NCBI GenBank assembly: GCA_946408355.1 | Contig: CAMJRX010000006.1 | Location: 1 to 64,000 of the forward strand | Direction: 5' to 3' | DNA: 64,000 nt | Source of the DNA: an uncultured Selenomonadales bacterium | Lineage (GTDB): Bacteria > Bacillota > Negativicutes > Selenomonadales > Selenomonadaceae | Part shown: piece after piece, positions 29,421 to 32,657 of the stretch | Layout: each line of letters begins with the position of its first letter | Numbering within the stretch: position 1 is the first letter of the stretch | Notes under the pieces: generated by a model | What the model was told of the DNA's origin: nothing | Databases searched by the model: none | The model's input: the letters and a program-made list of their open reading frames with translations, nothing else | Made by a program: the position numbers and the translations under genes

Positions 29421-29437
29421 GTCGCCTGTTGTGCGAC
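29421..29437 (+). promoter_or_regulatory. Dyad operator upstream of the small-gene cassette
   Basis: The dyad GTCGC-N7-GCGAC lies 57 bases before the TTG start at 29495. Together with four flanking bases it nearly repeats, inverted, the dyad at 32589-32605 (19 of 21 positions). A -10-like TAAGAT (29458-29463) sits 20 bases downstream, so the right half would overlap the -35 region. A T-run after it could alternatively make it a small terminator. Confidence 0.5.
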
Positions 29438-29494
29438 AAATTTTTTTACTCATTTGATAAGATAAAAATAAATCAAGATTAAGGAGGAATTACT

Positions 29495-29854
29495 TTGAAA
29501 ACGGTAAGAACTGAAGAGGAATATGCAACTGCCGTGAACAACGAAGAAGATTCCATAGAAGTTGTTGGAGACTTGCGCAACAAAATTCTCAAAATCAAAG
29601 CTAAAGGCAAGGTTGCATGGGGAATAGCATTTGCCGCAATCGTTGTTGCAGTCGGAATGGCTATGACGGGAGTTGGCATGCCCGCTGCTATTGCGAGTGC
29701 CGGAGCAGCGACAGCACTTATCGGAACGGGAGCCACGACTTCGGCGATAGCGATTGCAGTAGCGGCAGGAGGAACGGCGGTTTTGACTGCTACACGCGAC
29801 GATTATGAAATTGTCGAGCAAAATTCCAAACGGTTAGTTTTAAAGAGACGTTGA
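29495..29854 (+). CDS. Small Gly/Ala-rich membrane protein
   Basis: A 119-residue protein of unknown function. A charged N-terminus (about 1-38) is followed by a hydrophobic Gly/Ala/Thr-rich stretch (about 40-100) that could form two or three membrane helices with glycine-zipper spacing, and a basic tail ending KRLVLKRR. The TTG start has AAGGAGG at ideal spacing. It is the first gene of a likely operon that runs to 32585. Confidence 0.75.
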   Translation: MKTVRTEEEYATAVNNEEDSIEVVGDLRNKILKIKAKGKVAWGIAFAAIVVAVGMAMTGVGMPAAIASAGAATALIGTGATTSAIAIAVAAGGTAVLTATRDDYEIVEQNSKRLVLKRR

Positions 29855-29860
29855 GCAAAA

Positions 29861-29910
29861 AAGTCTTGGGGTTGCGCGTTTACCTCGCCTTTTTGCGCGC
29901 CCCAAGACTT
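29861..29910. other. Long inverted repeat between cassette genes
   Basis: AAGTCTTGGGG (29861-29871) pairs with CCCCAAGACTT (29900-29910); GCGC blocks inside extend the stem. On the plus strand no U-run follows, but on the minus strand the stem is followed by TTTTTT (29857-29862). It could be an mRNA processing or stability element for the operon, or a terminator against antisense transcription. Confidence 0.6.
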
Positions 29911-29941
29911 TAGCTTAAATTGTAAGGAGGGATTTTTTGCT

Positions 29942-30340
29942 ATGAGTAGCGTGGGCGATTTTATCAAATGTTTGATTGGATATTTTGCAATGATGTTTAT
30001 TTTCACGTGGATTGCCCAAAAACTTTTTGGTAAATTTGACCTTATTGGATGGTATCTTGTGGACGGACATATTTTTAAGGGATTATTTCTCGCCGTGCTC
30101 GCTTACTTTATTTATTTTGTCTGCGCGGGTGTTACGGCTTCGCAAGGTGAGAGCGGCAAGGCAGTTGTAGCAGTTATAATTATCTTTTCGCTTTTCAGCA
30201 TGTACCACGAAATTAATGAATTTGCGGGCAAGGCGGAAGGCATAAGGTATGTTGGCAGTGTGCTTTTTTATCTAATTGCTATGTTAAACGACACCTTGCG
30301 AATTGTTGCCACGCTATACGCATTTAAAGATGAGATGTAA
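29942..30340 (+). CDS. Hypothetical membrane protein
   Basis: A 132-residue protein with about four hydrophobic segments (residues 8-25, 40-60, 68-85 and 100-125). No motif is recognised. The ATG follows AAGGAGGG. It lies in the small-gene cassette, between two other secreted or membrane proteins. Confidence 0.72.
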   Translation: MSSVGDFIKCLIGYFAMMFIFTWIAQKLFGKFDLIGWYLVDGHIFKGLFLAVLAYFIYFVCAGVTASQGESGKAVVAVIIIFSLFSMYHEINEFAGKAEGIRYVGSVLFYLIAMLNDTLRIVATLYAFKDEM

Positions 30341-30353
30341 AGGGGGAATTTTC

Positions 30354-30710
30354 ATGAAAAATTTTTTGACGGCATTAGCGGTTGCGTTGGTTGCGATAAA
30401 TTTATTTTCGTTAGACGCGCCCCGCGCAGAGGCGGCATATCCCGCACGCGACACTTGGGTTTTGAATTGGGACCATACGGATTTGTTCGTTAAGGCGGGA
30501 ACTTTGGATTATACGCCCGGTCACCCCGACGTCGCGCCCGAATTCGGCTTTGTGCTTGCTTTTGACGGTATGGAAGTGTACTGCGACTTCAAAGCCAGAG
30601 GAATGGCGGTTTTGTATATCAATGGACAATTTGCGGGAGATTCGCGCAGTGATCCTTTTGTTGATTCTCTTTACAACGCCGTTTGCAATAAGCTGATTTA
30701 TCACAGGTAA
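30354..30710 (+). CDS. Hypothetical secreted protein
   Basis: A 118-residue protein with a clear signal peptide (MKNFLTALAVALVAINLFS, cut near AEA). The mature part begins AYPARDTWVLNWDHTDLFVK and contains two cysteines, one in MEVYCDFKARG and one near the end. It resembles no family I recognise. The ATG is at 30354, after AAGGGGGA; an upstream extension overlaps the previous gene and lacks a ribosome site. Confidence 0.75.
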   Translation: MKNFLTALAVALVAINLFSLDAPRAEAAYPARDTWVLNWDHTDLFVKAGTLDYTPGHPDVAPEFGFVLAFDGMEVYCDFKARGMAVLYINGQFAGDSRSDPFVDSLYNAVCNKLIYHR

Positions 30711-30736
30711 AAATTTTTTAAATGGAGGCGATTTTT

Positions 30737-31297
30737 ATGGCGCAGTTTTGTCCTGAATGTGGTACCGAGATAAAAGCTGGAGAAAAATTTTGTAAAGCTT
30801 GCGGGAAAAAAATTGGTGCGGCTCCTTCCAACGTCGACCTCAACACGTCCGGCGGAAGATACGAGGAAGATCATGACGTTGCCGATATGATTTTCAAGAC
30901 GACAGGGCGGCTTAACCGTCTGCGTTATCTTAAACGTTGTCTTGCTGTTGCCGCCGTCGAAGCGATTATTTTGTCTACGGTGTTTATTCTTTTCAGCAAC
31001 GATTGGGGCGAACTTTCAACCTTTGGCAGTATCGTCGCGTTGATTTTGCTCATTATCGGACAAGCTCCCTATTACTGCTTAAACGTTAGGCGTTTGCACG
31101 ATTTGGACAAGGACGAAACTTTAGCTTATGTCTTTGTTGCATTGGGAATTATTGGTGCGTTTTCTAGCGCGGATATTTTTGAGATGAGTTTTTTTGAAAA
31201 AGTTGCTTACGTCGTCGAAGTGATATTTGGTGTGTATCTGTTGTTTTTTCCTGGCACGCACGGCGAAAATAAATATGGCGCGGATCCTCTCGGCTAA
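30737..31297 (+). CDS. Zinc-ribbon DUF805 membrane protein
   Basis: A 186-residue protein. The N-terminus is a zinc ribbon with two CxxC pairs (CPECGTEIKAGEKFCKACGK). After a short linker a DUF805-like membrane domain follows (GRLNRLRYLKRCL; LNVRRLHDLDKD), with about four helices and a C-terminal KYGADPLG. DUF805 proteins are small inner-membrane proteins of unknown role. The ATG at 30737 follows GGAGGCG. Confidence 0.82.
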   Translation: MAQFCPECGTEIKAGEKFCKACGKKIGAAPSNVDLNTSGGRYEEDHDVADMIFKTTGRLNRLRYLKRCLAVAAVEAIILSTVFILFSNDWGELSTFGSIVALILLIIGQAPYYCLNVRRLHDLDKDETLAYVFVALGIIGAFSSADIFEMSFFEKVAYVVEVIFGVYLLFFPGTHGENKYGADPLG

Positions 31298-31324
31298 AAA
31301 TTTTTAGAAAGGAGTTGCACTGAA

Positions 31325-31714
31325 ATGAAAACTAAAGCGGCTCTCTTTGGGATAATTTCTCTTATGCTCATCGGAATTCTCATCGCGGGTTGTGGTGGAG
31401 AAAAATACGATAAGACGGTTCAAGTCGTGCGCAACGGAACTTTTTACATGAATCCCAACGTTCCAATCGGCAAGGCGTTCGACCAATTTTTTGCTGACGG
31501 TAAATGGCGTTCTTTCACCTCGACCGATAAAGAAACTATTGTCGAATTTACTGGCGAATGTACTTGGTTCAATTCACCTGCAAAAATGTTAGTTCAATTC
31601 AACGTCGAAGGCGAATCCTTTATCCTGCGCTACGTGGACATTAACGGTGTTGTAATGAGTTTTGAGGACAGCGCAAGCATTATGGAAAAAGTTTTGTCGG
31701 AATATAAACCTTAA
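31325..31714 (+). CDS. Hypothetical lipoprotein
   Basis: A 129-residue protein with a signal peptide and lipobox IAGC (about residue 23). The mature domain (VQVVRNGTFYMNPNVPIGKA, FDQFFADGKWRSF) resembles small lipoproteins found beside DUF805 genes, in which a central strand-rich domain follows a short linker. Function is unknown. The ATG has AGGAG upstream. Confidence 0.75.
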   Translation: MKTKAALFGIISLMLIGILIAGCGGEKYDKTVQVVRNGTFYMNPNVPIGKAFDQFFADGKWRSFTSTDKETIVEFTGECTWFNSPAKMLVQFNVEGESFILRYVDINGVVMSFEDSASIMEKVLSEYKP

Positions 31715-31726
31715 GGCGGTGTCGAC

Positions 31727-32074
31727 ATGGAACGATTTATTTTTATAATAGCCGGAATGATTACGGGATTTTTGGCGGTGAAGGCGTGTGGGCTTTCGTT
31801 TTTTGACTCTAACGATAAAGATTCGTCAATGAATATGAAAGGTCTTGTTGCTTTTGCGCTGTGTCTTTTTGACATACATTTTGCCAAACCGAACGGATTC
31901 GACGAATTAATCATCACAGCGATTATTACATTTGCCGTTTTCGTTTTGGGCTTTTACTTAATTTATGGCATAATGTCTTTGCTGAAAGTTTCTGGTGAAG
32001 ATACGAAAAATCGCCGCTCGATAGCTTTTTGGATCAACGCGGCAATTTCAACCGGCATAAATTTATTAATGTGA
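31727..32074 (+). CDS. Hypothetical membrane protein
   Basis: A 115-residue protein with three probable membrane helices (1-18, 65-85 and the C-terminal part) and a polar loop containing FFDSNDKDSSMNMKG. No family is recognised. It starts 12 bases after the lipoprotein gene stops, behind AAGGCGG. Confidence 0.7.
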   Translation: MERFIFIIAGMITGFLAVKACGLSFFDSNDKDSSMNMKGLVAFALCLFDIHFAKPNGFDELIITAIITFAVFVLGFYLIYGIMSLLKVSGEDTKNRRSIAFWINAAISTGINLLM

Positions 32075-32099
32075 AATTATTTTCGGCGGAGGTATGACA

Positions 32100-32585
32100 A
32101 TGGACGAAAAAAATATTAATCTGTTGCTTGGTGCTTACATAAGAAAAAATTGGATTCCAGTATTTCCTGGCTTTGTGAGCGCGGCTTATAGTCCGCCGAT
32201 TTTTATTGACGATATAAATTTTCGTAACTTGCAAGCTCAAAATATGGGTGAAACTTTTTCGGAAATGCTTATTCGGCTTATTGCGGAGAGCGGCGAAAAA
32301 AATTCTGCTATTTACACTCGCGCAAATATTGACCGTCGTCACTTCTCAAAAATCGCCAATCACAAAGAATATCAGCCGAGTAAACAAACTGCTCTTGCCT
32401 TTGCCATAGCTCTTAAGCTAGACTTCGACGAAACGCAAAAACTTCTTGCCACCGCCGGTTACACGTTAAATAATGCCAATCTTGCCGATGTTATCGTTTC
32501 GTTCTTTATCGAGTACAAAATTTTTGACGTGGACTTAGTTAATCAAGCTCTCTACAAATATAAGTTGCCATTGCTCGGCGGCTAA
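32100..32585 (+). CDS. HTH-domain protein of the small-gene cassette
   Basis: A 161-residue protein. The central part (ETFSEMLIRLIAESGEKNSA, IYTRANIDRRHFSKIANHKE, PSKQTALAFAIALKLDFDET) has the pattern of a lambda-repressor-like helix-turn-helix. The C-terminus ends in a short all-helical segment (LADVIVSFFIEYKIFDVDLV). Similar proteins occur as C-terminal domains or neighbours of macro-domain and VWA proteins in Firmicutes. The ATG at 32100 fits GGCGGAGG. It may bind the two dyads that precede this operon and the next gene; this is inferred. Confidence 0.72.
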   Translation: MDEKNINLLLGAYIRKNWIPVFPGFVSAAYSPPIFIDDINFRNLQAQNMGETFSEMLIRLIAESGEKNSAIYTRANIDRRHFSKIANHKEYQPSKQTALAFAIALKLDFDETQKLLATAGYTLNNANLADVIVSFFIEYKIFDVDLVNQALYKYKLPLLGG

Positions 32586-32588
32586 TTT

Positions 32589-32605
32589 GTCGCATAACGG
32601 GCGAC
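32589..32605 (+). promoter_or_regulatory. Dyad operator upstream of the VWA gene
   Basis: GTCGC-N7-GCGAC lies 52 bases before the VWA start, just past the HTH gene stop. A -10-like TATAAC (32627-32632) is 21 bases downstream, nearly the same geometry as the dyad at 29421-29437. The two sites suggest a shared regulator. Confidence 0.5.
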
Positions 32606-32657
32606 CAATAATTTTAACTTACATGATATAACATGCAACATAAGGAGGAAGATTAAA

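Follow-up and report, generated by a model that had tools for sequence, protein, structure and literature searches.

A conserved GTCGC-N7-GCGAC dyad upstream of a VWA gene in Bacillota and a linked helix-turn-helix protein as its probable activator

A 64,000 nucleotide (nt) stretch of DNA from an uncultured Selenomonadales bacterium (GenBank assembly GCA_946408355.1, contig CAMJRX010000006.1, positions 1 to 64,000, forward strand), here called the window, carries two exact copies of GTCGC-N7-GCGAC, a 17-base mirror-image word. Dyad 1 is situated upstream of an operon of seven plus-strand genes, the last of which encodes a helix-turn-helix (HTH) protein. Dyad 2 begins directly 3' of the stop codon of the HTH gene, and its end lies 52 nt 5' of a VWA gene. 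The HTH protein (32100-32585) is probably a class II activator of the VWA gene and of its own operon, acting through the dyad. The argument is built on conservation of the predicted operator, its fixed promoter geometry, its linkage to the HTH gene, the genes found as targets and the predicted fold of the protein. In the proposed mechanism an HTH dimer would bind the dyad, standing in for a -35 box approximately 42 bases upstream of where transcription starts, and from -42 would contact RNA polymerase and aid initiation at a -10 box at fixed distance. Bound at dyad 2 it would activate the VWA gene; bound at dyad 1 it would activate the operon that ends in its own gene, giving positive feedback. 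A macro domain present in most relatives would sense ADP-ribose or a derivative, and the window protein is without this domain.

A preliminary description of the window had placed the copies at 29421-29437 and 32589-32605, 57 and 52 bases before start codons (29495 and 32658), with -10-like boxes TAAGAT and TATAAC beginning 20 and 21 nt past the respective dyads; all of this is confirmed. The 19 of 21 identical bases it gave are found when 29421-29441 is compared with the reverse complement of 32585-32605, and two other 21-base frames yield 17 and 18. Dinucleotide shuffles of the window contain the exact dyad 0.135 times on average, and two or more copies occur in 2 of 200 of them. If one mismatch is tolerated, the window has 2 copies, no excess over the shuffles (mean 3.2). 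The entire genome holds 5 exact dyads versus 3 for the reversed control. Because of this small difference, and because three of the five genomic copies belong to an unrelated repeat, the dyad count alone is weak evidence, and it is conservation that makes the case. A coincidental pair, to which the background-level one-mismatch count would point, is hardly credible: it is refuted by conservation of the dyad across the class, at named HTH-VWA loci, at loci found from DNA alone and at mutS-linked loci.

Of 250 genomes from the class Negativicutes, 90 have a VWA homologue, and HTH homologues are found in 34 of 60 relatives. Conservation was scored at 69 listed VWA matches (class loci L092-L160), which are mostly from the top of the table, lower-scoring matches being omitted. 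An exact dyad is present 300 nt or less upstream of the VWA gene at 52 of the 69 loci, and a dyad with 9-10 of the 10 half-site bases at 58; elsewhere in these loci (225,206 bases) there are 9 exact dyads. An HTH match lies near the VWA gene at 47 of the 58 class loci with the dyad versus 1 of the 11 without it (Fisher p = 9e-6). The preliminary description had proposed a two-promoter regulon with the HTH protein as candidate regulator and had named absence of the dyad at orthologous loci as counter-evidence. Conservation and co-occurrence support the proposal, and the dyad is retained at the class loci as well as at two further sets of loci described below. A further locus (L191:7569, 8451, 9264) displays three tandem VWA paralogues, each with its own dyad and a -10 box at 21 nt.

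The arrangement extends beyond the class. A scan of named genomes with an HTH alignment gave at least 591 confirmed stretches, and the best 80 of these, the named loci, come from Clostridia, Bacilli, Erysipelotrichaceae and Negativicutes. The gene order HTH, dyad, VWA recurs in Clostridia, Bacilli and Negativicutes. Among the best 80 an exact dyad is found at 66, a VWA gene at 69 and both at 63. At all 69 HTH-VWA loci the dyad keeps 9-10 of its 10 half-site bases; the six without an exact dyad each have 9 of 10 bases and the -10 box at 21 nt. Three named loci have a dyad and no VWA gene, and at eight both are missing; several of the contigs are short. A DNA-only pattern (dyad, C, 20 nt, TAnnnT; control, the reversed pattern) was also searched. 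The patterns were picked after viewing the class sites and then tested on other genomes. Of 13 genomes to which the named loci led, the DNA-only pattern matched 10, with a single site in each; of 291 genomes from another class (that of genome G288) it matched 67, versus 5 for the control. Of the 39 sites fetched from both searches, 38 stand 33-80 nt 5' of a VWA gene, with an HTH match at 35; the remaining site precedes a gene judged by eye to be SIMPL-like. At L087, and also at five loci of this DNA-only set, the HTH gene is divergent from the VWA gene, with the dyad in between.

The geometry of the VWA promoter is fixed. The consensus of 51 distinct exact sites from Negativicutes is AAAT-GTCGC-YTGNCAK-GCGAC-CA, with T directly 5' of the dyad in 49 and C directly 3' in 51. 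In all 51 the T, A and T of a TAnnnT -10 box stand at an offset of exactly 21, which puts the dyad centre at -42 if the -10 box is set at -12 to -7. No TTGACA-like hexamer is found 15-19 nt from the -10 box in these promoters, since the end of the dyad occupies those positions. An extended -10 is frequent (G two bases 5' of the box in 32 of 51, T three bases 5' in 26). Among 67 exact dyads of an independently found set (L281-L360) TAnnnT is at offset 21 in 60, versus 0.0095 per offset for control anchors, with C 3' in 66 and T 5' in 67. The VWA promoter has the layout of a class II promoter, with the predicted operator at a fixed distance and in place of the -35 box. In a contrary arrangement the HTH protein would be a repressor, the dyad overlapping the polymerase site and the VWA gene and operon staying off until a signal, e.g. 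ADP-ribose, releases the protein. Many solved structures matching the HTH protein are repressors (434 Cro, SinR, DdrO), and systems termed ARG-centred are predicted to be under negative regulators of the Nudix-HTH and WYL-HTH types (PMC9503650, section 3.8). A repressor is nevertheless unlikely, as its operator positions would vary, while here the -10 spacing is constant, a TTGACA-like box is lacking and an extended -10 is common. We infer that activation is favoured over repression, because this spacing is fixed and the -35 box is missing.

The dyads might also act as RNA hairpins, i.e. intrinsic terminators or leader structures, and not as DNA operators. A simple scan labels both window copies terminator-like and dyad 2 directly follows the HTH stop codon, but such sites number 7 versus 6.0 expected, and the dyads fold weakly (z -1.85 and -1.78). 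An intrinsic terminator consists of a stable stem and a T run; the stems are weak and the conserved VWA-promoter sites have no T run after the dyad, although AAATTTTTTTA comes after dyad 1 of the window. Fixed -10 spacing and the dyads that separate divergent HTH and VWA genes likewise make the RNA explanation very improbable.

The AlphaFold2 model of the window HTH protein (mean pLDDT 85) shows five helices, at residues 53-64, 68-74, 79-87, 95-104 and 109-118, in lambda-repressor order. As modelled, it is a five-helix HTH domain of the lambda-repressor-like (XRE) DNA-binding type. Among the structural matches listed the top ones, over residues ~46-122, are SinR, 434 Cro, the controller protein C.Esp1396I and DdrO, with Z of 6-8, which is middling by itself, unrelated rows in the same listing having similar Z. 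Searched by sequence, the protein (P0001) matched no Pfam or NCBIfam profile credibly and no entry of the PDB; weak Pfam matches to P0001 and P0003 (NPH3, TLC) were dismissed as chance. A macro domain fused to the HTH is present at 74 of the best 80 named loci (for L083, Pfam Macro at 1e-49). The window protein has neither a macro domain nor any Pfam domain, ~45 other residues standing in its place. Macro domains of the fusions retain D9, N20, G29, G31, G118 and G121, residues of the ADP-ribose-type motif, and where fused, the macro domain probably senses ADP-ribose or a derivative.

Dyad 1 is conserved as well. Of the 11 mutS-linked loci of the genus, 9 have a dyad in the equivalent position, with the -10 box at 20 nt in 8 and 21 nt in 1, and a genus search allowing either spacing matched 18 of 66 genomes. 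Dyads are found 5' of the HTH gene itself in L251 and, directly so, in L470, and in L056 the mutS-side dyad is immediately 5' of g2 and the HTH gene. Autoregulation is the simplest reading because the dyad precedes g2-HTH in L056 and HTH in L470. In other species of the genus (L466:4409, L467:3768, L468:1960, L469:2244) the mutS-side dyad precedes a second XRE-type gene of 79-80 amino acids (aa), and additional dyads stand in a row 5' of g1-like genes. Between g1 and g2 of the window there is a very stable inverted repeat (29860-29911, -28.8 kcal/mol, z -4.7), perhaps an attenuator or processing site within the operon.

Several observations weigh against the HTH protein as activator at both promoters. 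This strong hairpin after g1 could end transcription before the HTH gene. Dyad 1 has no following C and its -10 box is at 20 nt, not 21; since it also has an imperfect -10 box in the reverse direction, toward mutS, it could act on mutS. Residue-base covariation between the HTH protein and the operator spacer (131 distinct pairs) gave top columns that are scattered and not in the recognition helix, in a comparison whose shuffles ignore relatedness and which is therefore neutral on the matter. Finally, 11 of the 58 class loci with the dyad yield no HTH match within the stretch examined. These 11 loci, along with the second small XRE-type gene near mutS in L466-L469, would fit another, unlinked regulator that binds the dyads, the HTH gene being merely a neighbour. 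That is quite improbable, given that 10 of the 11 VWA genes without a dyad are likewise without a nearby HTH and that HTH-dyad adjacency is kept across classes and in divergent layouts. The HTH protein is the preferred candidate activator, and we infer that it binds the dyad directly.

Other targets were sought across the class with a pattern of dyad, offset 21 and TAnnnT, C not being required, which matched 71 of 250 genomes versus 33 for the control. Genes 3' of the fetched non-VWA sites were identified by Pfam, run on named representatives (Table 1). Most other fetched sites precede a gene without a Pfam match or no clear gene, and a further Pfam batch of ten targets gave a match for L277 alone (Sel1, PcfJ). 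ADP-ribosylglycohydrolase (ARH), PARG and RtcB among the targets suggest ADP-ribosylation or RNA damage as the signal, and the targets hint at a common response to ADP-ribose or RNA damage. Dyads with a -10 box also precede very large Gly-Asp-Asn-rich repeat proteins (L471:4834, L483:3383), possibly surface or secreted members of the regulon.

The preliminary description had suggested a search of the genome for the dyad before other genes. One such site is found on contig C20, where an HTH paralogue is followed by GTCGCTTTAAAAGAGACC (one mismatch), TAAGTT 21 nt past the dyad, a membrane gene and RtcB. The three further exact copies (C20:15993, C43:13049, C48:1623) were rejected as regulon members, being part of the repeat GTCGCTTTNRAAGCGACNNAACAGCNGNC and having no -10 box. 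This repeat, of ~29 bases with the centre GCTTTAAAAGC and then AACAGC, is found at these positions and others, with 11 copies at 3 mismatches or fewer in the genome and none in the reversed control. On C40 a macro-HTH gene is followed by an ADP-ribosylglycohydrolase gene, and a dyad looked for there was not found. A relaxed search of the genome (dyad plus -10 box, two mismatches) gave 46/47 matches versus 35/37 in the control. Since this is too loose, the regulon was not extended, except for the membrane gene-RtcB unit. This third unit, the activator geometry and the occurrence of the module across bacterial classes go beyond the preliminary description.

Table 1. Features of the window and genes found 3' of dyads at other loci
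Feature	Location	Strand	Remarks
mutS		-	divergent from operon, dyad 1 between
Dyad 1, predicted operator, GTCGCCTGTTGTGCGAC	29421..29437	.	between divergent mutS and operon
-10-like TAAGAT	29458..29463	+	20 nt past dyad 1; TGA just 5' of it
g1, 119 aa, glycine-rich, hydrophobic	29495..29854	+	first gene of operon; orthologues 3' of dyads in L466, L467
g2, 132 aa, membrane-like	29942..30340	+	
g3, 118 aa	30354..30710	+	
g4, zinc ribbon + DUF805	30737..31297	+	in L254, from another family, a DUF805/zinc-ribbon gene likewise follows a dyad as target
g5, 129 aa	31325..31714	+	
g6, 115 aa, membrane-like	31727..32074	+	
HTH protein, 161 aa	32100..32585	+	proposed activator; lambda-repressor-like DNA-binding domain ~residues 50-122
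Dyad 2, predicted operator, GTCGCATAACGGGCGAC	32589..32605	.	centre ~-42 of VWA promoter
-10-like TATAAC	32627..32632	+	VWA promoter; exactly 21 nt past dyad 2
VWA gene, 215 aa	32658..33305	+	conserved MIDAS-type residues D9, S11, S13, T77, D113
ADP-ribosylglycohydrolase	L193, L194, L262, L276		Pfam on L193, L262
Microbial PARG	L261		
RtcB	L192, L203		~390 nt downstream, -10 at 20 nt; Pfam on L192
SIMPL	L242, L243		Pfam on L243
DUF805 with zinc ribbon	L254		like g4 of window
Metallophosphatase	L273, L278		Pfam on L273
DUF1232	L274		
Sel1 repeats	L244, L247		Pfam on L244
YfbK-type VWA	L261, L264		Pfam on L261
PHP	L266		
HTH gene itself	L251		

PADLOC defence models gave no credible match for g1-g6, the HTH protein or the VWA protein (best E 0.027). 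A search of the literature, in open-licence PMC text, listed no paper evidently on this operator or on a macro-HTH regulator. It is quite possible, while short of probable, that macro-HTH proteins are widespread, undescribed ADP-ribose-responsive activators of Bacillota, which through AAAT-GTCGC-YTGNCAK-GCGAC-CA turn on a single VWA gene in the majority of species and a larger regulon in Negativicutes. If so, the Negativicutes regulon would serve ADP-ribose removal (ARH, PARG), RNA sealing (RtcB) and related stress functions. A large protein family without a regulatory description is thereby linked to a precise operator and to targets that form a coherent set. The function of the orphan VWA protein and that of bacterial macro domains become testable.

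Class II activation by lambda-repressor-like proteins is known for lambda CI at PRM and for the C proteins of restriction systems. These share with the present case the fold, a dyad near -42, the lack of a -35 box and a fixed phase with the -10 box. Unlike them, the HTH protein belongs to a different sequence family, is usually partnered with a macro domain and has one target gene kept across bacterial classes. The RNA-repair regulon rtcBA of proteobacteria resembles the present one in that RtcB ligase is among the targets here. There the regulator, RtcR, is a CARF-domain activator of the sigma-54 type, in contrast to the lambda-repressor-like fold of the HTH protein. The HTH of NrtR also differs from the HTH described here. 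NrtR, a Nudix-HTH sensor of ADP-ribose mentioned in PMC9503650, has another sensor fold and is a predicted negative regulator. Section 3.8 of that paper describes ARG-centred ADP-ribose conflict systems of actinobacteria, planctomycetes and proteobacteria, with Nudix- or WYL-HTH proteins as predicted repressors and vWA chaperones. Like the present loci, these combine genes for ADP-ribosylglycohydrolase, macro, phosphatase and vWA proteins with HTH regulators of the one-component kind. The present system differs from that description in its macro-HTH regulator, its activator geometry, its occurrence in Bacillota and its centring on the VWA gene. Compared with these predicted systems, the logic is similar and the regulator different.

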